Source: Nereocystis luetkeana (taxonomy: Eukaryota > Sar > Phaeophyceae > Laminariales > Laminariaceae). Taken from it: a stretch of 64,000 nt of DNA. This document shows positions 1,209 to 59,225 of this stretch, in pieces. The DNA is taken from NCBI GenBank assembly GCA_031213475.1, contig JARUPZ010000013.1:9023794-9087793 (forward strand), read 5' to 3'. Position numbers and translations under genes: made by a program. Each line of letters begins with the position of its first letter. Within the stretch, counting starts at the first letter, position 1. The notes beneath the pieces were generated by a model. The model was not told the DNA's origin. It searched no databases and was given only the letters and a program-made list of their open reading frames with translations.

Positions 1209-1338
1209 AAACAAAAACAACGACCAAAAGGCCCAGAAACAAAAGCGCATCACGGACTCCCCCCCTGGTGCCCAAACAAAAACAACGACCAAAAGGCCCA
1301 GAAACAAAAGCGCCTCACGGACTCCCCCCCTGGTGCCC
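1209..1338. repeat. 65-bp tandem duplication (two units)
   Basis: Units 1209-1273 and 1274-1338 are nearly identical: both run from AAACAAAAACAACGACC to CCCCCCCTGGTGCCC and I see a single difference (GCGCATC versus GCGCCTC). The second unit contains the last codons and stop of the pol gene (stop at 1315-1317), so the duplication copied the pol end plus its downstream flank. Confidence 0.9.
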
Positions 1339-4300
1339 GCTTCTTCCTTCGATGGCGGATTTCTTCATCTCCGAGGCCGTTAGCTCCTCCCAGTCGTTGT
1401 CGGAGAACCGGACTCGCCAGTACGGCGAGTAGAAGTCGTAGACCTGCCCCAACCGGCTTGCCTTCCCGTTGCCGTCCTCGTACGACCTGGATATCTTCGT
1501 GCCGATCGGGAACCTTGCCAACGCTTGCTGTCTAGTCAGCGTCGGCCGTCCCTTCCCCCCCATGTCTTGGGCCGGGCGACGGGTCGCCTCGCTTCTCGGA
1601 GCGTGTAAGTTCCATAGCGCGTGAAACGTGTCCAGCTGCAACGGGGTAAAGCTATCCAAAGACTCTGCTTCGGAGACCCAATCTGATGCGACCCCGTCCA
1701 AGTACCTGCCGCGGTATTCCCACCGCGCGACCCCGGACGCGCTGATCACCCGCCTTCTGTCCAGCAGCGTGTACATCGGCGCCGCCGTGGTCGAGTCCCC
1801 CGCGAGTCCCAAGTCCGCCCCCCATGCTATCTGTGCGAACTCGTCCTCCATCGGGTGACGCAAGTCTGCCGGCCTCACGTAGAACGGCTTCAGCGACGTG
1901 GTGGAAACCGTCCTGGAGCGTGGTGTCCGGCCCTCCATCTCAATGACGACGCTCAGGCCCTCGATCACCACCTCCACCACCTTCCACGGACCGGTCCACC
2001 TCTCGTGGACCAGTTTCGGCCCCATCCCCTGCCGGTGGAGCGAGCTGTCGCTCTCCCGGGCGAGAACGAGGTCGCCCTTTGCCACGCGGGTGCCCGCCGA
2101 CGGCCTCTGAATCGCCGCGTTGTGGCGCTGGCGCGCCCTCTCCCTGCGCTCGTGCATCCTCTCTAGTGCCTCCCGAACCTCCCTTAAATTGTGCCGTCGG
2201 CCCTCAATAAAGTTCTCGAAGCCTCCCGTTGACTCCGTGTCATCCATCTGCGGCACTAACATGTCAAGGGCCGTGCGAGGGCTGCGGCCGAACAAGAGCT
2301 GGAAGGGCGTCATAGCGGAAGGCAGGGCTGGGTCTGGCATGGTGCGTTTAATCCAACATGCCAGCGCTACGTACTCGTCCCATCGGGTTGGCCACGCCTT
2401 ACATAACTCGGAAAGCACATCCAGCATCCACGCTCCTACTCGCTCTACACTGCCTTGGCCTCTCGGGTGGTCGGCCGGCCCGAAGTCTATCGGTACCTTG
2501 AGCCACCGACACAGGTGTTCCATTACAGTGGCTGTGAACTCTCCTCCCCCGTCCGCGCGGATAAACGAGGGCACTCCAAACGTCAGACACAGGTCGAGTA
2601 GCAAGCGCGCAACCGCATGAGCCTCCTTCGAGGGGAGGGGGTATGCAAAGAGAAACCGAGATGCTTTGTCCACTACCAGTAGCAAGTACTCGTTACCTGC
2701 TTCGGATGTGTTGGGGATCCGTAGCAAGTCTATTTCCAAAACTTCCCACGGCTCCAGGTACCTTGCAGGGAGCATAGCTATGCGTTGGCTTCGCGAGCGT
2801 TTCCTACGCCGGCACCCGCACGACAAGACATACTCCCCCGCATCCCTGCACATACCTGGCCAGTGGAAGCGGTCGCGCAGTAGCGCAAGCGTCCTGCCGA
2901 CGCCGGGGTGCCCATGCTGGCAGTGCACCAAGGCAAGCAAGTCGGCTACCATCACGCGCGGGACGGCCAGGACCGACGTGCGCCTCTCCAGCATTCCGCG
3001 CTGCTCTAGGTCGTACCACACCAAGTTCTGATCGTCAAGGAGATACCGTGCTACCTCTCTATCTCGCGCGCGCTCGCCCCCCACCGTTCCTCCCTCACCC
3101 CCCAGGGCCTCCCTAATCCTACCGAGTAGGGGGTCGTCCATCTGCCGCCTCACCAGCCCTGGCACGTCGCGCAGCGCCTCGATGGCTCGTTCTATCACCG
3201 ATCGCTCCGGCGCCCGTTCGCTGCGCGGCACCCCCCCCCCGCTCGTGGAGGGCCCGCCCAGGCCGCCTGGTACTGGCGCCGCGCCCGCGTGGCGTGTACC
3301 CGGCCCTCCCGATGGGGACTGCTGTCCGTCGCCGCCGCCCCTACCACCGCCCCGCTGTGTCGTAGTTGTCGACGGCGAGCCTGACGCGGCTGGGGGAACC
3401 GGCAGTGCAGTCTCCCGAGGCACGTGTACCGCCCTAGCCGTGTGATCGGGGAGTGGACGCAGCCGAACCGACGGCTTGTGCGAGCGAGCCGACCGCCGCA
3501 GCGCCGGTGACGCACCGGCCCCCACCGCTGCCAGCCTGTCGTGAAATGCGAGGGTGAGCAGCTGCTTGTCTCTCGGGGCTTCCTCCCCCGACTCTCGGAG
3601 TCCGGCGCTGCTGGGGTCAGTCTGCGGGATGCTGTCAACAATGGCTCCGAGCAACGAGGGCGCAGCGGAAGGGCGTGGGTTCAGCGACTGTGATTTCAAC
3701 ATCCTTGGCGAGCGCGTCGTGATTACTACCTTCTTCTCGCGCACCCCCCCCGGGTCTACCACCCCTTCCCTAGCGGGCTCCAGCTCTCTCAACAGGACAC
3801 CATCCAGAACCGGCCCTCGCGGCCCTACGTAATCGCTCGGCTTGCCGGAGGTCGCGTCGTCGGGAAAAGAGTCATCGATGGAGTCTGCGGGGGGGCCCGG
3901 CCGGAGCAAGCGCGACAACGCGTCCGGTACCTGGTGAGACAAGCCCGCCCGCCATCGCATGATTATGTCGAACTCGGCAAGACGCAGCGACCAGCGGTAC
4001 AGCTTGGGGTCTAGGTCGCGGCTACGAAACAGCCAGGTGAGCGCGGAGCAGTCAGTAAACAGCGTGAACGGACTACCAGCTAAATACGGCCGAAAGTGCA
4101 CCACTGCCCACAGTACCGCCATACACTCCCTTTCCGTCGCCCCCCTGCGTGCATCGGTTGCCGACCAACGGTGGCTCGCGTAGGCGAGGACTCTCTCCTT
4201 GCCGTCGATTTCTTGCGTCAGGGCGGCGCCAGCCCCCGCGGCGCTCGCATCTGTGTGAAGAGCGAACGGCTTGTCCCAAACGGGGAACGCGAGAATGGGG

Positions 4301-5481
4301 AACGACGTCAGGGCCGCCTTAAGGGACAGGAAGGCGTGCTGTTGATGTTCGGTCCACGGAATCAGGGTGCGCCGGGAGCGCTTAGAGGCAAAGGCTTTGT
4401 CCCGCAAAATGTCAGTAAGCGGCGCGGCTAGTATGCTGTATCGCTCGACGAACTGCCTCAGGTATCCCGTCATGCCAAGAAACGCGCGCAACTCCTCAAC
4501 CGTTCCCGGTGGGGAGAGTTCCGCTACCGCCGCTATTTTGGACTCTGCCGGTCGCACGCCCTGCCGGTCAACGACCATGCCGACAAACTCCAAGCTCGCA
4601 CAACACCATCTAGACTTTGCAAAGTTCACCGAAAGCCCTCCCGCTTGCAAACTATGGAGTACCTTTTCCACGAGGGTCAGGTGCCCCTCAAAGTCCGCGC
4701 TGTAGATCAAAATGTCGTCAAGATAGTTCTCTACCCCGTTCGCTTTCAAGTCTCCCAGCAAGTCCGTTACCATGCTCGCGAACGCCGGCGGTAATATCTT
4801 CAAGCCGAAGCCACACCGCTCATACTCCCACAGCTGCCCGAAGGCGTCCCGGAACGCCGTTTTGTGGCGATCCGGCTCTGCGATAGGAAGCTGGAAAAAC
4901 CCCGACGCCAAATCAATCGACGTGAACCATGCGCTACCGGCCAACCTCTGGAAAATTGTCTGAATATTCCCCACCCCACCGCTGTGATTCAACATGCAAC
5001 CGTTGAGGCCACGGTAGTCCTGGCACAAGCGCAACGTACCGTCTTTCTTACGAACCGTTACGCATCGAGCGGCCCAGGCGGATGTGGATTTACGGATAAT
5101 TCCTGCTTCGGCTAGTTTCTTCACCTCTCTCTGGATAGCGTCTGCCTGCTCCGGCGAGAAGCGCTGTTGCTTCGCTGCGATCGGCGCGCACTCTTCGTCA
5201 ATCAGGGGAATTCGCAACTCTCTTACCGTGCACGCCCGGACTCTCTTCGTGTCCTCCGGGAATAATCCTGCCACATTCTGGGGCCTCAGGGTATTCATCA
5301 TCAGCTGATTCTTCTGAGCCACGCTGAGTTGCCCGATGTTGGCGTCGGACAACTCCACCCCTCGCGTCGGGGTCTCGGTGCAGCCCGCGTCGGGGACAGA
5401 CGGGGGGTCGTCAGGGGGCTCCGGGACGGGGTCAGGGGGCGGGTAAATGAATAATGCGCGGAATCGACCCTCATCCCTCAT
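1315..5481 (-). CDS. Ty3/gypsy retrotransposon pol polyprotein (RT-RNase H-integrase)
   Basis: A single uninterrupted 1388-codon frame. Reverse transcriptase spans about residues 105-300, with FTSIDLASGF (186-195) and the catalytic YLDD (253-256). RNase H follows at about 400-525: LHTDAS with D411, TERE around E450, FTDCSA with D477, and PDALSR with D520. A Pro/Gly/Ser-rich linker (about 525-760) leads to integrase: an H-rich zinc-binding segment (H853/H858 with C888 and C890, here C-x-C rather than the usual C-x2-C), then the D918, D977, E1013 triad with the typical 35-residue D-E spacing, and an RWTGPW motif of the GPY/F type. Two C-terminal modules look chromo- or Tudor-like: about 1236-1290 (RWEYRGRYLDG..SDWV) and 1323-1372 (SYEDG..WRVRFSDNDWEEL). 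The start is fixed because an in-frame TAG lies four codons upstream of the ATG. There is no gag, zinc knuckle or aspartic protease in this frame or in the 2 kb upstream, and I could not pair any LTRs, so the element is either 5'-incomplete or uses an unusual layout. The frame is intact, so the copy may be recent. Confidence 0.95.
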   Translation of the reverse strand: MRDEGRFRALFIYPPPDPVPEPPDDPPSVPDAGCTETPTRGVELSDANIGQLSVAQKNQLMMNTLRPQNVAGLFPEDTKRVRACTVRELRIPLIDEECAPIAAKQQRFSPEQADAIQREVKKLAEAGIIRKSTSAWAARCVTVRKKDGTLRLCQDYRGLNGCMLNHSGGVGNIQTIFQRLAGSAWFTSIDLASGFFQLPIAEPDRHKTAFRDAFGQLWEYERCGFGLKILPPAFASMVTDLLGDLKANGVENYLDDILIYSADFEGHLTLVEKVLHSLQAGGLSVNFAKSRWCCASLEFVGMVVDRQGVRPAESKIAAVAELSPPGTVEELRAFLGMTGYLRQFVERYSILAAPLTDILRDKAFASKRSRRTLIPWTEHQQHAFLSLKAALTSFPILAFPVWDKPFALHTDASAAGAGAALTQEIDGKERVLAYASHRWSATDARRGATERECMAVLWAVVHFRPYLAGSPFTLFTDCSALTWLFRSRDLDPKLYRWSLRLAEFDIIMRWRAGLSHQVPDALSRLLRPGPPADSIDDSFPDDATSGKPSDYVGPRGPVLDGVLLRELEPAREGVVDPGGVREKKVVITTRSPRMLKSQSLNPRPSAAPSLLGAIVDSIPQTDPSSAGLRESGEEAPRDKQLLTLAFHDRLAAVGAGASPALRRSARSHKPSVRLRPLPDHTARAVHVPRETALPVPPAASGSPSTTTTQRGGGRGGGDGQQSPSGGPGTRHAGAAPVPGGLGGPSTSGGGVPRSERAPERSVIERAIEALRDVPGLVRRQMDDPLLGRIREALGGEGGTVGGERARDREVARYLLDDQNLVWYDLEQRGMLERRTSVLAVPRVMVADLLALVHCQHGHPGVGRTLALLRDRFHWPGMCRDAGEYVLSCGCRRRKRSRSQRIAMLPARYLEPWEVLEIDLLRIPNTSEAGNEYLLLVVDKASRFLFAYPLPSKEAHAVARLLLDLCLTFGVPSFIRADGGGEFTATVMEHLCRWLKVPIDFGPADHPRGQGSVERVGAWMLDVLSELCKAWPTRWDEYVALACWIKRTMPDPALPSAMTPFQLLFGRSPRTALDMLVPQMDDTESTGGFENFIEGRRHNLREVREALERMHERRERARQRHNAAIQRPSAGTRVAKGDLVLARESDSSLHRQGMGPKLVHERWTGPWKVVEVVIEGLSVVIEMEGRTPRSRTVSTTSLKPFYVRPADLRHPMEDEFAQIAWGADLGLAGDSTTAAPMYTLLDRRRVISASGVARWEYRGRYLDGVASDWVSEAESLDSFTPLQLDTFHALWNLHAPRSEATRRPAQDMGGKGRPTLTRQQALARFPIGTKISRSYEDGNGKASRLGQVYDFYSPYWRVRFSDNDWEELTASEMKKSAIEGRSGHQGGSP

Positions 5482-23236: not shown

Positions 23237-23553
23237 CTGGAACCTTTGGTTTCAATCGTTTGATACATCTGCCCGTCATCTCGCGGGCAATCCGACATCT
23301 TCACCCACACGGTAGATCCCACGGAGTGGTTCGGTATGTTGCCTACAACCACTCATCACAGTCGATAGGCCCACGATAATGGTCCATCAGCGTTACGTGA
23401 ATGATGATTGCGTGGACGTTCGTATACGGACGGCTGGAGATATGGGTTCGAGAGCTAAGCAAAGCTCCGATGATTGACTGTTATAGTTTATCGGCATTAT
23501 TACTAGGGGCCTGCTGTGAGTAGGCAGACGAAACACACACGAAGAACACTGGC

Positions 23554-23625
23554 CGCAAGTGTCACCACATTCTCCACGCGTGCAGGCGCCCTAGTAGCAC
23601 ATAAACGCCCCAGCCGGCGTGCATT
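23554..23625 (-). pseudogene. Copy A exon: Cys-rich, 72 nt, three lesions
   Basis: Matches 43,690-43,761. Reads C-TPAGAFMCY-stop-GACTRGECGDTC: an in-frame TAG replaces the Glu codon region of copy B (CDEG). The acceptor position is CGG instead of CAG and the donor is GC instead of GT. Confidence 0.7.
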
Positions 23626-23819
23626 CCGAGAGGATCATTGATACGAGATTAATGGGCGCGTCAGAGCCTTAATGACGGAGTACTGTTTCAACTTGGCATA
23701 ACAAGAGAACGCCAGCACGTCAATGGAACGAGCTCAGCAGACGAAAAACCGTAGTCGGCGCCATGACCCCCACTCCCGGACACACACGTATGACCTCGAT
23801 AGCACAGTGGTGGACTCAC

Positions 23820-23866
23820 CACATTCGTCGAAGGAGACGCCCTCAGTCTTGATCTTGGCGGCCACG
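23820..23866 (-). pseudogene. Copy A exon: 47-nt linker ending in Cys
   Basis: CAG acceptor, GTGAGT donor. Encodes VAAKIKTEGVSFDEC against VAAKVKTDDISFDQC in copy B. The differences are V/I, D/E, D/G, I/V, Q/E and two silent ones, a pattern of protein-level constraint, so this exon was functional after the duplication. Confidence 0.7.
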
Positions 23867-24061
23867 CTGCGTGCAACGTGTAGAAACAAATGACCACGGG
23901 GGTGGAGAGATGAGGTAATATACGTCGTCGAAAGAAATGCTGTCCCTTTGTTGCCTCTACGGTTTTACACTCCGAATGATCGAGGATAGGAGGTGTGTTG
24001 CAATGTATGTCTAGCTGGCCGTCTGACTGATCATAGGTTTTCCTGCTCCGACAAAGGCCAG

Positions 24062-24103
24062 GAACCTGTTGAATATCCTTAATTTGCAGTGAGTCCCAAC
24101 AAA
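24062..24103 (+). pseudogene. Copy A LRR C-terminal cap exon, inverted and with stop
   Basis: Opposite strand to the rest of the gene. AG acceptor at 24,060-24,061 and GTGAGT donor are kept. Reads NLLNILNLQ-stop-VPT; copy B reads YLSKNPDLQCVPT, so the Cys codon TGC became TGA. The surrounding 23.9-24.3 kb is likewise inverted relative to 44.4-44.8 kb. Confidence 0.75.
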
Positions 24104-25119
24104 GTGAGTTATCGTCGTTTTCGCCGATGGCAGAGATTCCGTTTGGGCGGGGTCTACAGCTACTGTAGACGCATACCGGTATCAAGGCGGCAATACTTGC
24201 ACCCAATGGTTCCTTGGAGCCTTGTTGTCGATTCGGCATCAACCGTGCCTGGGAAGGAAATGACATCACAGTGCAAGAATTAGAGAAAAAAACGAAACTT
24301 CTTGTTTGAGTGGAAGCTATAAAGTTAATGCCCGGCCCCGCATGTACATGTTGACCAGGACTCGTTGGACCGACCCAGTGACGCCATCATGCTCGATTCA
24401 TTCACAGAGTTTGGTATATACATAGAATAAAAAAAAGGTACTCGTATACGAATTTTCAATAGAATATATCGGTGGAAGCGGATCCCGCCGTGGCCTACTT
24501 TGGCTGACGGAAGGCCGGGACAGCGCGAGGTGATGTAGTGTCATACGGTTCCGGTACCGGCACAATGGTTAGAGATATGTAGAACAACACCGTGACGCCC
24601 TTCCTCGGTTCCCCCGTTACCTCGGCGCCCACATGAGGGTTGGATGGAGAGGGTGGCCGCACTGAGAATTTTGGCCAGCTTGCCACGTCCCGAATGCATC
24701 CCCACGCATGACCGCCGCGTCTTTGACAATCAAACGGCGAACTGAGCCACTACAGCAAGGCAACACGCCTAACATTCGCGGGGAACGTGTTGCCTTTCAG
24801 GGGTACGTGCCGAGCCCTCCACGACCCAGATCATTCAGACCAACTAGGCGTTTCATCGAACTAAACAACCACACCATTCAACGCGTCGAATTCGGTACCT
24901 CTTGGGGCGGCAAAGTGCACGAGTCGAAGACACCAAAACGGCTGCGTCAGTCTAGATCCCATACCTACAGCATCACGTTCCAGGACTAGGAGTGCAACAC
25001 GCGATCGAACGTACCTGACGCGTATGTGCGGTACTAGCAACGATGTCTGTTCGAGTAACCATCAATGACGCGATAGGTCCCAGACCGCTCCTCCCGAAAG
25101 TACATCAAGTATAACGTAC

Positions 25120-25191
25120 AAGAATTGAAGGTTTCCAAGTCCGGCGAAAAGGCCAGACGATACACCACTCAGCTGGTTTACGCTCAGAAGG
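25120..25191 (-). pseudogene. Copy A LRR cassette, 72 nt
   Basis: CAG acceptor and GTACGT donor intact; phase 2 at both ends. Encodes L-LSVNQLSGVSSGLFAGLG then NLQF, a typical 24-residue LRR with N at the consensus position. Pairs with 47,312-47,383. Confidence 0.8.
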
Positions 25192-25745
25192 CTGAGGGCA
25201 TTACAAAAGAAAAGAGGCGCAAAACAAAAGTTCAGCTAGGTAGCATGTAGTAACGCCACCGTCATTTTTGAGCGATTCACTGTCGATTTCGCCTTGGGAC
25301 AACACACTTGCTTTGTGAAAATAAAAACCATTCGCGACCACTAAAAACTCCGTATAGAGACTATGATGTATACATAACTCACGAACGAACCGGCAGATTC
25401 CCTTTGACTCGAGAGTGTTCAGGTCACTCGCCCGTCGGACGGGCTACCCTCGCCCATAATGGATCATACATGCACGGAAACTGCGAATACAGAACATGGA
25501 GGGAAACACATCAACCACTACAGCCGACCACTGAAAGTCTTCAACTATTGATTGGTCAGGCTCGGTTTGGAAAACGCGCATTACGCCACGGACATCGAAC
25601 CGAGCCACTGCTTGACAGTGAACGTCTCGTAACATCGTAGTGGAGGTACTCAGTTCCTATCAAGCACTTGAGGAAACTTTGCAGATGTACATGATCCAGT
25701 CGGAAGACCGCCCGTCATGCACAACTAATGTCAAGACGCACTTAA

Positions 25746-25817
25746 AGTCGAGTTAGAGATCCGAACCCCTGGAAAGTATCTTTGGCCAGCGTAGTCAGAG
25801 CGTTGTCCCCAACAATC
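25746..25817 (-). pseudogene. Copy A LRR cassette, 72 nt, broken donor
   Basis: CAG acceptor intact. Encodes IVGDNALTTLAKDTFQGFG then SLTR. The donor reads TTAAGT where copy B has GTAAGT, so normal splicing out of this exon is lost. Pairs with 47,940-48,011. Confidence 0.75.
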
Positions 25818-26247
25818 CTGTGGGGGTTCAGCGACACGAAATATCGGGCGGATGTAAACGTAGCCACATAGTAGGTAATAGTATAGTCGCCTAATATTCA
25901 CCGTCACAGGGCCCCAGGCTTTTACCGACCTCGAGTCGCGCAGGGTAGAGGGAAAGCCATTAGCGTTAGTTCTGCTATTTTTGAATGAACTAAGACGATC
26001 TCCGAGGATTCTGCTATCAGCGTCTCATTATATCCACAATTGTCAAGCTGTTTCGTCGCCCTCACGAAATAGAGACACCGGTCGACAGTACAATCAAAAA
26101 TGTTGTAGAACATGAGCATGAACCCGGTCCTAAAAGCTTCGATTACCATCGGCTTTCATGTGCCTCGTCAGCGCGAAGGACCCGGCATCAACGCGGGTCC
26201 AGAAGGAGTGGTATGGACTTCAATCTGGGCGCGAGTTCCTTACTCAC

Positions 26248-26340
26248 AATATTTCGGTGTTGTTGTGTCCGACATCGTCGAAGCACGCCTTCACGTACGG
26301 AATGTCGTCATCATCCGTCAACGCGCAGACGTACAAATTA
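26248..26340 (-). pseudogene. Copy A ribonuclease-inhibitor-type LRR exon, 93 nt
   Basis: TTTCAG acceptor and GTGAGTAAG donor are perfect. Encodes NLYVCALTDDDDIPYV.. ending NNTEI. It has one codon more than copy B (90 nt). Open and well conserved. Confidence 0.75.
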
Positions 26341-28532: not shown

Positions 28533-28564
<32 letters not shown>

Positions 28565-28890
28565 CCATCCCATTTATTATCTTCGCACATCTTCTTCTCT
28601 CTCTCCTTCCAACTCGTAACTCAGATCCGGGGTCACATAGCAGGCTCTTCTCCCCCCTTCCCGCTACGGTACGTGCCTTCATTTTTTATCGCGAGAAGAT
28701 TTCAGCCTTTTCTTCCCTCGTCGACTCGCATCGAATTGTGCCTACCCACGCTGCAAGGCGCTCTCAACAATTGAATCCCTTTTTTATATTTTTGCAAATA
28801 AAGTCAAAGTCCGACCCTCCTGGGGCTCGAACCCAGGACTCAAACAAGTAGAATTCGAGGTTAACCACTTGAACCACCGGGGCGACCGGC
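28533..28890 (-). mobile_element. SINE-A copy 1 (full length)
   Basis: Read on the minus strand: tRNA-like head with GGTTCAAGTGGTTAACC (A box) and GGGTTCGAGCCCC (B box), then the linker TTTGCAAA, body TTGAGAGCGCCTTGCAGCG .. GAGTCGACGAGGGAAGAAAA .. GTGACCCCGGATCTGAG .. AATAAATGGGATG, and a ~32-nt A-tail (T-tract 28,533-28,564). Likely target duplication: TGTGACAT left, TTTGACAT right. Confidence 0.9.
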
Positions 28891-42605: not shown

Positions 42606-43306
42606 CTTTCGGCTTGCACGAGTGGCTTAAGGGGCACGTGTCTCTGAACATCCGTCGTATCCTCGTAGAAACTGCAGGATCTTGTCAGGCCCCACAGGTC
42701 AGTGCCGACCAATCGCTAGTGCTAAGCCGATCCAAACATGGTTTGTCGAGGGTAGGTATCACGGATGAATCTGGCCGGTAGTGCTGTGCACAGCTACACC
42801 TGCCGTGCCGAAGTTTGGGGGACGACCGACGACAATGGGGAGACATTCAAGCGCCAAACGACTGGACCAAGAAAGGTTTTCACATCAAATTAACCCGAAA
42901 CAACTCAATCTGCAAAGCAATACCAGGCCCCCCCCAACACAATGTACTGCATTCTTGTTTGCGTTTCGTAGTAGACAGCACATCGACGTCACAAACGCCC
43001 TAAGCAATGTCTCGCCCTCAAGGTTACGATTTGTGGTACTAAAGGTTTGTCACCAACATCAAGCAACAGGCACAGAAGTAGTCGAAGATGAACCAGTACC
43101 TATTTGCATCTGACCGTGGCGGGCGCCACATACGTTTTACGCTTAACGTTGTGATCGCCTTTTATTTAGGGGGTGTTGACATCGTTTCGTTCTTTTTCGA
43201 TTGTGGAACGTTCAAACCGGGTTGCCTCTTGCCTTTGCCCGGGTATCTACAACAGCCCAAACTGTGTACTCGTTCGTAGCTTCGAACGAAACGGGCCCCA
43301 CCTTAC

Positions 43307-43375
43307 AATTTTCAATTGCTCTGTCTTTGCTGCCCCACCTACACGAGCGCCATTCCTGACAGCGTGCCATGCATC
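43307..43375 (-). CDS. Copy B exon: Cys-containing, 69 nt
   Basis: TTGCAG acceptor, GTAAGG donor, phase 1 both sides. Encodes CMARCQEWRSCRWG.. ; C-x3-C-x5-C spacing. Family not recognised (PAN/apple-like at best). Confidence 0.55.
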
Positions 43376-46300
43376 CTGCAACCTTTGGTTTAATTAGTTT
43401 ATGCATCTGCCCGTCATCCTGCGGGAAATCAAATATTTCCATTCCCACGGCAGGTTCACTAGCGCTGTTCAGTGTTTCCTACAAACATTTAGCACTGTCG
43501 ACAACTGCCCCTATGTTGCGCACTAATCGATTTCTACAAGACGATTGCGTGAACGCCCCTATACGCGTGGCTGAGGTTCCGGTCCCAACAGTCACGCAGA
43601 GGTTTGGGGATGGCCAAGTAGACTAACTCGGCACCGTTCGTGCCTATACGTTGAGTCGGCAGAGGGCGTACACTACGAAGAACACTTACCGCAAGTATAG
43701 CCAGATTTCCCAGGCGAGCAGACGCCCTCGTCGCACATTACGGCCTCAGCCGGGGCGCATCCTGCCAATTGGAGCGTTGATACAAGATATATGTGCACGT
43801 CAGAACCTTGGCGAGGAAGTACGTTTCTGACTGTTGCAAATTCGGAACGCAAAATGACGCGCATGCTCATCAACGGAACGTACTCGGAGGACGAAAACTC
43901 GTTTATCGACGCTATTGCAACCACTCAAATCCACACACAAACGAGCCCGAAAGTGTTTTAGCTAGCACGAATAGCACAAGTTGCCGACTGTTGATGAACT
44001 CGCATAGCGATCGACTTACCGCATTGGTCGAAGGAGATATCGTCAGTCTTGACCTTGGCTGCCACGCTGCGTATGATACGTAAACACAATGGGCCGCGCA
44101 GGGGTGGGGTCGTATACGCCGTCGCAGTTCCGTTGTTAAGTTGTTAAATTTGTCTGACAGAAGGCCGGGTCAGCGCTATGTTGATGCAGTGTCAGCAGTC
44201 CCGGTTCCATGACACGTTAACATATACGGTGGAAAAAAACATTACGCCCTCCCCCTGTTCTCTTCTGATCTCTAGAATGGCGCCCACATGAGATGAAGAG
44301 CTAGATACATGTAAATGTTTAGATCACTACACCCAACTATGCGGAACGAATAAGGCAAGCTGGAGTCACTGGGTCGGTCGACCAAGGCCAGGCCGACAGG
44401 CATATCCGAGACGTGTGCATCCACATTTGAACTCGAACTGAGACATTCCTTTTCCTCCTTTTGTTTTGTCTGCAGTGTATTCATGTTCTCACCCCCCGTC
44501 ACGATGGACAACAAGTCGAGGACACGGCTGCAGGGACCTATTCGGTGCAAGTGTTTCCGCCCTGATGAAGGCATGATCTCTAGCTGTAGACCTACCATAA
44601 AAAATAAATTTCCACCTGTCGGCGGAATCGACGATTACTCACTTCGTGGGGACGCACTGCAGATCGGGGTTCTTGGACAGGTACCTACCGTTTGTGAAAC
44701 ACGAGACGTGGTAGATATCACGAAAAGTGTGCAGAATATATGTGTCGCCAGCAGGGAATGAAGATATCGGGCTATGACGCGTGCTGCGACAGGGTATCAC
44801 ATCATACCATGCAGTAGACAACATATATCATATATAAGCCTTCATGTACAGGACCTCCCCACAGACGTGTGTTAAGCCACGTTAATCCGACGTTCGCAAA
44901 ATATTCACGTAATTATTAAGACGAACAACCCCGCGCTCGGCACTTGATGGATACGAAGAATAGTTCGTTGAAACAGTGGGATTACGTACAGGCTTGTTTC
45001 TTGTAGGCCTTGAGGGTCGTGCTCGCAAAAGCCCTCAACGAGTCCCGTAACAAATCGCCGAAAAAGCGATACCTCCATCGCGACATGGGTCCTGTGCACT
45101 ACAATTTCCTGTCTCCCACACTTGGTACAATGTTATAGATGTCGTCAAGTACCTACACACTGTCTGGCACTGTCTGGAGGTCACGTAGGTGGAGTGGGGT
45201 CACGTAGTCGACGTCATTCTACTCTTTTTCTCCGCCGTGTAGACGAATAACAGCGATACCTCCCCCGGTATACCGACACCACCAAACAACCGTACAACCG
45301 AGGCCTAACAGATTGTTGCAACAGGATGGCTCCATCATACCACGCATTCCCGACATATATAGGAATGAGCGGTCAAACATCAATGACACAGACATCAAAT
45401 GAGAGGATGACCTCTGAATTAACCCCGCTTACAATGTTTTAAGGTTTCCGAGGTCGTCGAACAGCCCTTCGGGCAGGGTAGTCAGCTTGTTATCCGTAAG
45501 GTACCTGGTTACGTTCAATGTTGTACGACGATCGGCGGTTGAGAAAAAGGGCATCGTCAAGAAATTAGTCCAGCGGCAGATCATGGAACAGTACACGATC
45601 ATGCCCCCGCCGTCCCGACTCCGGTCGCAGGCTTCGTGTAACCGACGGGGTCAACCAGCACTGCAAGACCGAAAAAACGAGATCATTGCTTTCTGAAACT
45701 GGCCACTACTAGGCAGCAATACGTGGCGAGCGAAGTGCGAACGAAACGAGACACGAACAACTGAACCTGCAGTCGAAAACAGCGGTATTGTCAACAAGCG
45801 TCGGAGTTTCCAATTCAACGTCCGGTACGGGCGACGACTAAACAAAGAATGGTCGGGTGGATTCATATCGATTGCGCCAGATATTACAAACGTTCCCCAC
45901 AGAGCCTACACACCTCGACATCGTGTGTCTAGTGGATACAATTGTGAGTTAGGATTGGGGTTCTTGAAGGCAAGCGGGAAACGATATCCTGACAATGGTT
46001 CATACTTGACACCCATCAAGGCAAACTTACAAGTTTGATAGGGCCTCAAGCCCGTCGAATATCCCGGCCGATACGGCGCTTAGTTGGTTTTGGGAAACGG
46101 TCCTGGAGACAGTGACGAAAGGTTGGAGCAGCGAGGAGAATGGCCCTGTCAGTCACCATGCAGGCATGGCATTCCTTCTGGCAATGTGCACCTCTTTAGT
46201 GTACACAAATTGCGTATGCACAAAGTCGATACGTCACATCTGTTACGGGGGGAAATCCATATACTGGGACCATCAGGAGGTGTGCACGTTATCGTCATCG

Positions 46301-48529
46301 AAACTGCCTGACTGTCTGACATGCCCTACCTATCTACGACCATCCACGATGGTAGTTTTATACGTATCATAAGACACCAACGATATAGCATGTTTACAAC
46401 AAGGAACACATAGACAACTGTTACTTTAGGCTACCATCGAACGTCCTGGAGCGATAGTATGTCGGCATTATAATCGCCGCAGGGTGTCCTGTACCGTATT
46501 GGATGCATGCATTTATCCCCATCGTATTCAGACCCCGACTATCAACACGGTAAGGTGGGGTTACGACGTACTGGAAGTTCGCGGCAAAATTACAGGAATT
46601 TTGTCCGCCGCTCTAAACAGAAGAGATTGGGCCATCGAAACATTCGACGAGCTCGGATAAAGCTAACATCATACCACATTGTCGAGATGATTTAAATGCG
46701 TCCAAGGTATGTATACATATTGTCGCCCACTCACAAGTATTTAAGCTGTTCAAGGCCGTCGAAGATCCCCTCTGGCAGGGTAATAAACTTGTTGTCCTGG
46801 AGGTACCTAGTCACGTGTCAGGGGTCGAGAGAAAGTAGCGAAAGAAAGGACGGCCGCACTCAAACGTTGGGCCAACGCGCTATGTCCCCAACCCATCCCC
46901 AAGCATTCGCGTCGCGTGCTTGACATCCTAGCCTCGAGTTGGGATACAACAGCAAGGTCACGCACCGAACATTCGTTGAAAATGTGTTGCGTGGCAAGAG
47001 ATACGTGCCGAGTCCGCTACGAAAAGGACAATTATGGAACAACTGGGTTTCACCAACTAAAAATACACCCTCCAGCAAAAGCATCGTTTCCGGTACCTCC
47101 CAAGAGCAACAAGTTCAAGATACCTAAACGGCTGGGTCAGCCTTGATTCCCTGACCGCACGATCACGTTCCCGGACAAGGCGACAGCATTCCGACCGAAC
47201 GTACTTGACGCGCATGTGAGGTTCAAAAAGCGCCGGTTGTTCGGGTAGCTATCCTTGGCGGAATAGGTACTCCACCGCCCCTCTACGCAAGGTACTGAAA
47301 TGATTACTTACAAGAACTGGAGATCGCCAAGGCCGACGAATAGTCCAGAAGATACGGCACTCAGCTGGTTTCCGTTCAAGAGGCTGTCGTCGTTGCGACA
47401 AAGAAGGGGCCGGAGAGAAAGGGCCAGTTAGTCATTTTTCTATCAGGCCACCGTAGTTCAGCGGCGGTGTACTGTCGATTTTGCCGTGGGACGTCATGCT
47501 AACGGAAAGACGGGCCAAAAAAGGGACCACTATCGAACGTTCGAGAGACCTTTGACGAATACATACCTTTATAGAGAACCGGCAGAAGCGTGCAGAAAGC
47601 AGACACAATGATTACTCGACCGTCGTACGTTCTACGCTGGATTCATCATGGTTGATACGAACATGGAACACAACAAATACGACACATGGGACAAAGAAAG
47701 GATCGATCAATACAGGCAACCACTGAACGCCTTCCCCCATTTGATTGGTCAAGTCAAGTCTGCGCAAGAGCGTAGGACGCCGGACTCCGGACCGAGCCAC
47801 AGCTCGACGGTGAACGGCTCACACTATCGTAGGGTGGGTACTGGGTTCATGCCAGGTAGCTCGTAGAGTATTTGCAGGTATGCATGATCCAGTGGCGGGA
47901 CCATCCGTAATGGACAACTAAACGTCGAGACGCACTTACAGCCGATTCAGAGTCCCGAGCCCCTGGAAAGCATCTTCGGGTAGCGTGGTCAACTCGTTGT
48001 TCCCAAGGATCCTGTGGCGGTACACCGACACGAAATGTCGGGTGGAAGTGAACAGGGTTACGCACTACGTCATAGGATAACCCCATACTAATTCACCATC
48101 ACCAGGCCCGTCGCTTGCACCAAGGATGAGTCGCGCCGACGAGAGGGCAAGCCTTAAGCGCAAACTCTGCCGTTTGTGAGTGAGAAAAAGGACGATTTCC
48201 GCGAATACTGCTCTCAACGGCACGATATATCGACCAGTCGCATCATCGACCACAATGGGGTAGACAAACCTATCGAAAGCCCCAACATTAATGTTGTACA
48301 CAATTATGAGTGAAAAAACACTTTGATTCTCTTTCCAGCGCCGTTTATGTGCCCCCGTCACGAAGAAGGATCTCGCATCAAAGCACAGCGAGAATAGGCC
48401 GAATGGGCTGTAGAGTCTGGTCGCAAATTCCTTACTCACAATGTTTCGATGTTGTCGCGTCCGACAATATCGAAGCACGCCATCATGTCCGGAACATCGT
48501 CATCCGTCAACGCGCAGCCGTACAAATTG
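43307..48529 (-). CDS. LRR/Cys-rich receptor-like ectodomain gene, copy B (multi-exon)
   Basis: A gene assembled from nine small exons with canonical GT..AG boundaries and matching phases. In order: 48,440-48,529 (ribonuclease-inhibitor-type LRR, 90 nt); five 72-nt LRR cassettes at 47,940-48,011, 47,312-47,383, 46,735-46,806, 46,031-46,102 and 45,433-45,504; cap exon 44,643-44,684 (NPDLQCVPT); 44,020-44,066 (ends ..SFDQC); 43,690-43,761 and 43,307-43,375 (Cys-rich). Every junction from the first LRR to the cap is phase 2 and splits a Leu codon (TT/G or CT/C), so the repeats join in frame without any stop. Introns are 258-748 bp. LRR plus cap plus Cys exons suggests a cell-surface or secreted recognition protein. 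I found no kinase, ROCO GTPase or membrane span, so the C-terminal half is unknown. Expression and exact 5' and 3' ends are not determined from sequence. Confidence 0.75.
43690..43761 (-). CDS. Copy B exon: Cys-rich, EGF/GCC2-like, 72 nt
   Basis: TTGGCAG acceptor, GTAAGT donor, phase 1 at both ends. Encodes CAPAEAVMCDEGVC then SPGKSGYTCG. The C..PG.SGYTCG ending resembles EGF-like or GCC2/GCC3 ephrin-receptor-like repeats; the assignment is tentative. Confidence 0.65.
44020..44066 (-). CDS. Copy B exon: 47-nt linker ending in Cys
   Basis: CAG acceptor, GTAAGT donor. Enters in phase 2 (fits the cap exon, forming an Asn codon) and leaves in phase 1 (fits the Cys exons). Encodes VAAKVKTDDISFDQC. 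It is the phase adaptor between the LRR and Cys-rich parts. Confidence 0.7.
44643..44684 (-). CDS. Copy B LRR C-terminal cap exon, 42 nt
   Basis: GTAG acceptor, GTGAGT donor, phase 2 both ends. Encodes YLSKNPDLQCVPT, the usual LRRCT pattern (L..NP.LQC). It directly follows the last LRR cassette. Confidence 0.75.
45433..45504 (-). CDS. Copy B LRR cassette 5, 72 nt
   Basis: CCAG acceptor, GTAAGC donor, phase 2. Encodes YLTDNKLTTLPEGLFDDLG then NLKT: a canonical typical-type LRR (L..N.L..LP.G.F..L). No counterpart in copy A. Confidence 0.85.
46031..46102 (-). CDS. Copy B LRR cassette 4, 72 nt
   Basis: CCAG acceptor, GTAAGT donor, phase 2. Encodes TVSQNQLSAVSAGIFDGLE then ALSN. No counterpart in copy A. 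Confidence 0.8.
46735..46806 (-). CDS. Copy B LRR cassette 3, 72 nt
   Basis: CTAG acceptor, GTGAGT donor, phase 2. Encodes YLQDNKFITLPEGIFDGLE then QLKY. Very close to cassette 5 in sequence, so the two probably arose by exon duplication. No counterpart in copy A. Confidence 0.85.
47312..47383 (-). CDS. Copy B LRR cassette 2, 72 nt
   Basis: AG acceptor, GTAAGT donor, phase 2. Encodes LLNGNQLSAVSSGLFVGLG then DLQF. Orthologous to 25,120-25,191. Confidence 0.8.
47940..48011 (-). CDS. Copy B LRR cassette 1, 72 nt
   Basis: ACAG acceptor, GTAAGT donor, phase 2. Encodes ILGNNELTTLPEDAFQGLG then TLNR. Pairs with 25,746-25,817, whose donor is broken. Confidence 0.85.
48440..48529 (-). CDS. Copy B ribonuclease-inhibitor-type LRR exon, 90 nt
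   Basis: TTTCAG acceptor and GTGAGTAAG donor, phase 2. Encodes NLYGCALTDDDVPDMMACF then DIVGRDNIET. The L..C.LTD..VP spacing is the 28-30-residue LRR class, different from the 24-residue cassettes that follow. Confidence 0.75.
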
Positions 48530-48980: not shown

Positions 48981-49026
48981 ACTGTGTCCGAACCACTCTC
49001 GCACTTGTCGAAGCAGGCGTTTGCAC
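48981..49026 (-). CDS. Copy B candidate upstream exon, RLLRQVREWF
   Basis: ACAG acceptor and GTGAGC donor. Encodes CKRLLRQVREWFGHS; copy A (26,806-26,850) encodes CTRLLRQVREWFESS with one silent change in the shared part. Similarity continues past the donor (..TID.EKT...RGL), so the true exon may be longer. Frame linkage to the LRR exons is unproven. Confidence 0.4.
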
Positions 49027-49761: not shown

Positions 49762-49886
49762 TTTTTTTTTGTTTTTATTTTGCTCATCCCATTCATTATC
49801 TGCGCACATCTTCTTCTCTCTCCTTCCAACTCGTGACTCAGATCCGGGGTCACATAGCCGGCTCTTATACCCTCTTCCCGCTACGC
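49762..49886 (-). mobile_element. SINE-A copy 3 (3' part only)
   Basis: A-tail and 3' body, ending at CGTAGCGGG, the same junction at which copy 2 stops. Inserted near the end of segment B. Confidence 0.8.
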
Positions 49887-50612: not shown

Positions 50613-50670
50613 CGTGAACGGCACCGACACCAGAAAGAAGTAGGCCGAAGAGCAGGAACACGGCACGCAT
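50613..50670 (-). CDS. Signal-peptide-like first exon (candidate start of the LRR gene)
   Basis: ATG at 50,670-50,668 in the context GCGAAGATGC. Encodes MRAVFLLFGLLLSGVGAVH plus one base, then GTAAGC donor. Short basic start, a 13-residue hydrophobic core and small residues near the end (SGVGA) make a good secretory signal. It is 2.1 kb upstream of the first clear LRR exon, in the right orientation. The exon leaves in phase 1, and the next exon is not identified with confidence: the stretch just downstream (50,460-50,590) has a hydrophobic open frame but no clean acceptor. Confidence 0.45.
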
Positions 50671-58881: not shown

Positions 58882-59225
58882 GTTTTTTGTTTTTTTTTCC
58901 CCTCATCCCATTGATTATCTTCGCACATCTGCTTCTCTCTCTCCTTCCAACTCGTAACTCAGACCCGGGGTCGCATAGCAGGCTCTTCTCCCCCCTTCCA
59001 GCTACGGTACGTGACTTTATTTTAACCGCGAGAAGATTTTCGGCCTTTTTTCCCCTCGTCGACTCGCATCGAATTGTGCCTACCCACGCTGCAAGGCGCT
59101 CTCAACAATTAAATCCTTCTTCTTTATATTTTTGCAAATTTAGTCAAAACTCCGACCCACCTGGGGCTCAAACCCATTACTCAAACACAAGCAGAATTCG
59201 AGGTTAACCACTTGGACCACCGGCT
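58882..59225 (-). mobile_element. SINE-A copy 8 (full length)
   Basis: A-tail, 3' body, 5' body and head with GGTCCAAGTGGTTAACC and GGGTTTGAGCCCC. The first bases of the head are missing or changed (CCGGTGGTCC..). Confidence 0.87.

Follow-up and report, generated by a model that had tools for sequence, protein, structure and literature searches.

A brown-algal leucine-rich repeat gene with one repeat per 72-nt exon, probably a member of a secreted, cysteine-capped family

What kind of protein is encoded by a gene in which each leucine-rich repeat (LRR) has its own exon, and do such exons behave as freely exchangeable pieces? The question is raised by a locus on the minus strand of a 64,000-nt stretch of the Nereocystis luetkeana genome (contig JARUPZ010000013.1, positions 9,023,794 to 9,087,793; the whole stretch is referred to as the window). 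A preliminary description of the window, made from its sequence, had noticed five LRR exons in a gene thought to start at 48529 and had proposed that any of them could be added, lost or swapped without breaking the reading frame. Our analysis suggests that the window gene belongs to a large family of secreted, Cys-capped LRR proteins in brown algae and that its product serves in recognition or as a decoy, or else forms the ectodomain of a receptor, the anchor of which was not found. We put the probability of this reading at roughly 0.6.

Exon architecture of the window gene

The gene model consists of 11 exons, in which RI stands for ribonuclease inhibitor:

50613..50670, minus strand: signal-peptide exon, 58 nt, ATG start, phase 0 to 1, GT donor; MRAVFLLFGLLLSGVGAVH(G)
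48981..49026, minus strand: N-terminal Cys connector exon, 46 nt, phase 1 to 2, AG/GTGAG; (G)ANACFDKCESGSDT(V)
48440..48529, minus strand: RI-like N-terminal cap exon, 90 nt, phase 2-2
47940..48011, minus strand: LRR exon 1, type A, 72 nt, phase 2-2
47312..47383, minus strand: LRR exon 2, type B, 72 nt, phase 2-2
46735..46806, minus strand: LRR exon 3, type A, 72 nt, phase 2-2
46031..46102, minus strand: LRR exon 4, type B, 72 nt, phase 2-2
45433..45504, minus strand: LRR exon 5, the last, type A, 72 nt, phase 2-2
44643..44684, minus strand: C-terminal LRR cap exon, 42 nt, phase 2-2; (L)YLSKNPDLQCVPT(N)
44020..44066, minus strand: 47-nt exon, phase 2 to 1, ending in Cys (DQC)
43690..43761, minus strand: EGF-like Cys exon, 72 nt, phase 1-1

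A single frame stays open from the ATG across the 11 exons, with AG and GT sites at their borders; the introns start with GTAAG or GTGAG and end in AG. The five one-repeat, phase-2 exons of 72 nt lie exactly where the preliminary description placed them, each preceded by AG and followed by GTAAG or GTGAG. It was also right that the junctions from the RI-like exon to the cap exon are in phase 2; a Leu codon is split at each of the six. These phase-2 introns fall within the conserved Leu that borders each predicted β strand. The start of the gene had to be moved to 50670, since the signal-peptide exon and the 46-nt Cys exon had been missed. The latter mirrors the 47-nt exon: the connector takes the frame from phase 1 to phase 2, and the 47-nt exon takes it from phase 2 back to phase 1, as had been described. 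The whole LRR block is therefore flanked by phase-1 introns.

The joined protein is matched by Pfam LRR_8 with an E value of 6.8e-30. The signal peptide was assigned by eye and by likeness between loci; similar exons were detected in L041 (E 0.003), L044 (E 0.010) and, more weakly, L037 (E 0.11), and a pattern search for the exon returned three loci including the window. A pattern search for the connector exon returned four loci, the window and three paralogs. An alignment of 11 RI-like exons contains five invariant columns, two of which are Cys. The Cys exon is 75 nt long in nine paralog loci modelled by pattern search, compared with 72 nt in the window. Pfam EGF did not match either of two joined proteins tested; with one paralog peptide to which one Cys was appended, it gave an E value of 0.044 and a score of 14.5 bits, the cut-off being 21.5.

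The preliminary description asked whether open 72-nt LRR blocks could be equally common by chance. A 23-residue LRR profile, trained on 70 LRR peptides from the fetched loci with the window excluded, matched the window seven times above a threshold of 18 bits: five times in the window gene and twice in a decayed sister copy. In 25 dinucleotide shuffles, it matched once in total, at 19.2 bits; the test is not fully independent, since the training peptides had been gathered with an earlier profile that included the window exons. In the window and loci L035-L054 together, 82 matches exceeded the threshold. At the expected splice positions, AG was present in 76, GTRAG in 80, and AG and GT together in 75, compared with at most 10 AG and 2 GTRAG at each of the other offsets within 12 nt. 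The seed peptides of this profile had been picked by their splice sites, so the shuffle test is the cleaner of the two. On these two grounds, we rejected a chance origin of the LRR exons.

The first intron codon after 81 of the 82 matches is an in-frame stop. Phase 2 combined with GTRAG opens the intron with a stop codon, so that a retained intron would truncate the protein at the border of a repeat. The stop follows from the splice consensus, and no special selection is needed to account for it.

The window contains a second, damaged version of the gene and, at the 3' end of the window gene, an open stretch that is not supported as an exon:

23551..26340, minus strand: decayed sister copy of the window gene
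43212..43375, minus strand: open stretch, the first 68 nt of which (to 43308) had been proposed as the last Cys exon

The sister copy retains the RI-like exon, a type A LRR at 25817, a type B LRR at 25191, the 47-nt exon at 23866 and the Cys exon. The donor of its first LRR exon is broken, its Cys exon contains a stop, and it has no counterpart of LRR 3 through the cap. Six exons of the window gene could be compared with it (connector, RI-like, LRR 1, LRR 2, 47-nt and Cys). They are 75-87% identical, and the introns are 63-66% identical; the single values are 87% for the connector (introns 66%), 83% for the 47-nt exon and 75% for the Cys exon. We rejected the possibility that the window gene is itself a pseudogene, based on its open frame and the conservation of its exons. 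It looks like a working gene.

The phase-1 Cys-rich exons proposed in the preliminary description fared differently. The 72-nt exon at 43761-43690 is retained. The one at 43375-43308 is not supported as a terminal Cys exon: 44 of its 68 nt are identical to the sister copy (64.7%), a level equalled or exceeded by 43% of the 68-column intron stretches in the same alignment, although the decay of the sister copy makes this a weak test of conservation. Identities by codon place are 14/22, 14/23 and 16/23, so the third place is no freer. Over its full 164 nt, to 43212, the open stretch reaches 55.7% identity with the sister copy, which beyond weak matches is its sole likeness in the fetched loci. 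A segment that runs into the start of the unsupported exon, 43435-43345 on the minus strand, is 79% identical to the sister copy (72/91), above the surrounding introns.

Repeat order and the gene family

The phase of the exons permits free addition, loss and exchange, as the preliminary description pointed out, but the pattern found is different: the subfamily of the window gene shows pairs, and a second subfamily, on contig C17, shows places. We counted the LRR exons in nine modules with both an RI-like and a cap exon: the window gene, three modules on contig C13 at 8.79-8.82 Mb, one at 8.98 Mb and one at 9.01 Mb on the same contig, and three near-identical modules on contig C16. The counts in this order are 5, 5, 5, 5, 7, 3, 5, 5 and 5, odd in all nine. 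Several of these modules are tandem neighbours and do not represent nine independent events, and a diverged exon under the profile threshold would alter a count.

The odd and even places have different consensus sequences, yLxdNxLTTLPEgLFxgLgSLxx and xLxxNxLSALPPGLFDGLgkLxx, respectively. Between modules, exons of the same parity are 46.5% identical and those of different parity 38.3%, a difference that none of 5000 shuffles of exon order reached (two of the three near-identical C16 modules were omitted); parity within modules alone gave the same result, 0 of 5000. This A/B alternation was first seen by eye and then tested on the same data. Left out of the parity test were the C13b module, whose RI-like exon and first A exon were not found even with locus L056, the sister copy, from which exons are deleted, and the C17 and C2 loci, which belong to other subfamilies. 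Module C13a0, with a stop in its RI-like exon, was kept, since only LRR exons count.

Best matches preserve parity in 168 of 210 comparisons, and the last LRR exon is best matched by another last LRR exon in 31 of 42 module comparisons. Among the five-repeat modules, the best match has the same parity in 79 of 100 cases and the same position in 33 (20 expected by chance). The middle places are therefore not fixed, which speaks against a full position lock in the window's subfamily. In the window gene itself, LRR exons 3 and 5 are 75% identical in DNA over 91 nt and LRR exons 2 and 4 are 77% identical over 44 nt, which is what duplication of a two-exon unit would leave.

The C17 genes (L045-L054) have about ten LRR exons of 69, 72, 75 or 78 nt, all in phase 2-2. 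Their lengths by position, 75, 72, 72, 78, 78, 72, 72, 69, 69 and 72, mostly agree among genes, with L051 having a first LRR exon of 72 nt. The best match of a C17 exon is the exon at the same place in another gene for 83 of 88, and it lies in another gene rather than the exon's own for 34 of 34. Places were numbered along each gene, and gaps (places 3 and 8 of gene g and place 9 of gene a) were bridged by likeness, which makes the numbering partly circular; gene e contributes places 1-7 only. Gene C17d has ten LRR exons, so the odd-count rule does not hold in this subfamily. Given the A/B parity and the C17 places, we did not find scrambled exon order between genes; inside the five-repeat modules the picture is mixed.

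The window gene belongs to a large clustered family. In the assembly searched (465 Mb, 1987 contigs), the Cys exon of one paralog found 53 matches at E values up to 10, 34 of them below 0.01; eight of these 34 lie on high-numbered contigs and may be haplotypes. Family matches are concentrated on C13, C17 and C16, and additional contigs hold others. On C16 (L042-L044, G000:C16:9412000-9441999), three LRR units are repeated with a period of ~7.45 kb. Identity between units is 97.9% in the long alignment, 95.5-95.6% in others and 78.6% around the RI-like exon of the uppermost unit. The signal-peptide exon was found before the uppermost unit only, and a pattern search returned no convincing connector exon in any of the three.

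As for the genome at large, EsV-1-7 repeats (PF19114) are abundant: of 1710 candidates, 150 were scored, and all 150 matched. An expansion of this family has been reported for brown algae (PMC7457493), and the genome thus looks brown-algal. A search in prokaryote genomes returned three loci of bacterial genomes (L002-L004), which were not used further.

Other elements are present in the window. A dispersed repeat of ~390 nt at 51720-51330 on the minus strand has nine further full or partial matches, 76-92% identical, including 28564-28888, 63508-63189, 58904-59218 and 53076-52757; parts of it lie inside the first intron of the window gene (49785-49879 and 50156-50055). It carries a GGTTCGAGCCCC box and an upstream GTTCAAGTGGTTAACC box, which we take to be like those of a tRNA-derived short interspersed element. 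ARAGORN found no tRNA. At 1315-5481 on the minus strand, a 1388-aa open frame resembles, by eye, the polyprotein of a Ty3/gypsy-type retrotransposon.

The encoded protein and alternative readings

In order, the predicted protein comprises a signal peptide, an N-terminal Cys cap, an RI-like turn, five LRRs of 24 residues each, a Cys-containing C-terminal cap and a Cys-rich EGF-like piece. The predicted signal peptide, together with Cys caps at either end of the LRR block, places it in the class of secreted Cys-capped LRR proteins. The protein would be secreted, and its LRR arc, held by disulphide caps, would bind an extracellular ligand through the concave face; the ligand would most likely be microbial or derived from cell walls. 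Diversity would arise in the germline from tandem gene duplication, from gain and loss of two-exon units and from substitution on the concave face. A role in immunity may be inferred. A sequence search of the PDB returned mainly extracellular LRR proteins (ALS, LGR4, LRRTM, TLR and VLR) among the best 60 of 353 matches, with the intracellular SHOC-2 also among these 60; the query still contained part of the unsupported last stretch. These matches support the fold, not the function.

The pattern of substitution is in line with binding through the concave face. Residues 1, 3 and 4 and the last two of each exon peptide were taken as concave sites, which is approximate for exons of 69-78 nt. The ratio of nonsynonymous to synonymous substitution rates (dN/dS) is 0.60 at these predicted sites and 0.25 elsewhere, and dS is 0.89 and 0.68, respectively, in a sample of 61 same-place exon pairs that are non-independent and include the truncated C13b module. 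Site entropy is also higher at the concave places (p 0.010 for odd and 0.003 for even repeats). The coding sequence is thus under constraint, while change on the likely binding face is freer or diversifying.

Some points weigh against our reading. The dN/dS ratio does not exceed 1 and is no sign of positive selection. Some family members carry stops, deletions or truncations, and part of the family is therefore decaying. Finally, the C-terminus was not found: among 13 downstream stretches, none contained a convincing, widely shared exon after the Cys exon.

A less likely alternative is a secreted LRR protein that serves the cell wall or development, through adhesion, gamete recognition or wall sensing, and not immunity. 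The signal peptide and Cys caps suit any extracellular LRR protein, and nothing names the ligand. The clustered family, its decayed copies and the change on the concave face fit recognition better.

It is also conceivable, if unlikely, that the gene encodes a membrane receptor, such as an LRR receptor kinase, with transmembrane and kinase exons further downstream or missed. Brown algae possess LRR receptor kinases (PMC8307928). Since the Cys exon closes in phase 1, splicing as modelled would call for one more exon. On the other hand, one regular expression for the kinase catalytic-loop motif found no match in any frame of the window and nine other stretches, and, as noted, no exon is widely shared among the 13 downstream stretches. 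Two loci do share a stretch of 248 nt that is 81% identical, at very different distances from the gene (~4.9 kb downstream of the Cys exon start in L038 and ~0.36 kb in L041); it may be a repeat or an exon. The preliminary description had suggested a different receptor class. A distinct class, a secreted one, draws support from the signal-peptide exon and from the Cys exons that flank the LRRs; the word receptor goes further than the evidence, no kinase motif having been found in the stretches searched.

A more elaborate scheme builds on the C16 tandem blocks, two of which have no detected signal-peptide exon of their own. Cap and RI-like exons are both in phase 2-2, so skipping the exons between them would keep the frame. 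Phase-2 cassettes would have been duplicated as pairs in the A/B register within a phase-1 block, and splicing from a cap to the next RI-like exon would join the blocks into a long receptor with isoforms made by splicing. We regard this scheme as quite doubtful.

It is very improbable that the LRR block is part of a ROC-COR gene cut short, and we rejected this candidate since no ROC match lies near the gene. Such a reading could draw on the 72-bp phase-2 LRR exons of brown-algal LRR-ROCO genes (PMC11378527). In the whole genome, 47 of 90 candidates matched ROC (PF08477) at E values up to 0.001, the only one on C13 being at 1.28 Mb, and the statement of the preliminary description that no ROCO domain is visible holds. 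COR-A found no match in the genome, a weak test since exons are split, and a signal peptide with Cys caps is ill-suited to a cytosolic GTPase. Least credible of all is a receptor rearranged somatically by cassette exchange during life, a mechanism proposed for brown algae and used by lamprey VLR: there are 72-nt cassettes of one phase, with variants in many loci, but the A/B alternation and the constant places of the C17 exons (83/88) argue against it, and according to PMC11378527 no somatic recombinant ROCO loci had been reported.

Related systems and biological meaning

The design of one repeat per 72-nt exon is already known in brown algae, and the kinship of design with LRR-ROCO genes to which the preliminary description pointed is supported. 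Teng et al. (2024) described brown-algal LRR-ROCO genes with 72-bp phase-2 LRR exons and intense shuffling, as well as 15 non-ROCO sequences of Saccharina japonica that contain 72-bp LRR exons, most of which carry no motifs other than LRRs (PMC11378527). The window gene, with several such exons and no ROC match nearby, can be placed beside these non-ROCO genes. ROCO and non-ROCO genes share with it the single LRR per 72-bp phase-2 exon. Beyond what is described there, it has a predicted signal peptide, Cys caps, an EGF-like exon and an outer phase-1 block, and the exons of its subfamily are in A/B order, in contrast to intense shuffling (PMC11378527). Among the matches listed in a search of the open-access literature, titles and abstract openings named no secreted Cys-capped brown-algal family of such design. 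What looks new here is the design in a secreted family with fixed alternating repeats rather than freely swappable single pieces.

Comparable arrangements occur in other groups. NLRs are intracellular. The mammalian NLRP genes, of the RI type, resemble the window gene in the fixed length of their LRR exons, in an exon border at one place of the β-sheet and in an alternating two-repeat unit; there, a single 171-bp exon holds both repeats, of 28 and 29 aa (PMC6642158), whereas each repeat of the window gene has an exon to itself. Tetrahymena has LRR arrays with an exact exon length and phase-2 introns. Its exons are 90 bp long, number 1 to 51 per gene in T. thermophila and are scrambled in order by ectopic recombination, in contrast to the short ordered arrays found here (PMC6564038). 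Slit and lamprey VLR belong to different lineages from the window gene, and their likeness to it is noted without a claim of common origin. Both are secreted or extracellular proteins with LRRs of ~24 residues and Cys caps, as predicted for the window gene; Slit also has EGF domains, and VLR assembles somatically. The modular LRR exons of Slit have been remarked upon (PMC6642158).

Brown algae became multicellular independently of animals and plants, and little has been learned about their extracellular recognition proteins. This clustered family of many putatively secreted LRR proteins, with its clean exon boundaries, offers a concrete set of candidates for extracellular recognition. The A/B rule and the odd repeat counts suggest that LRR arrays of single-repeat exons grow by pairs, not by single cassettes, in parallel with the two-repeat exon of NLRP genes.

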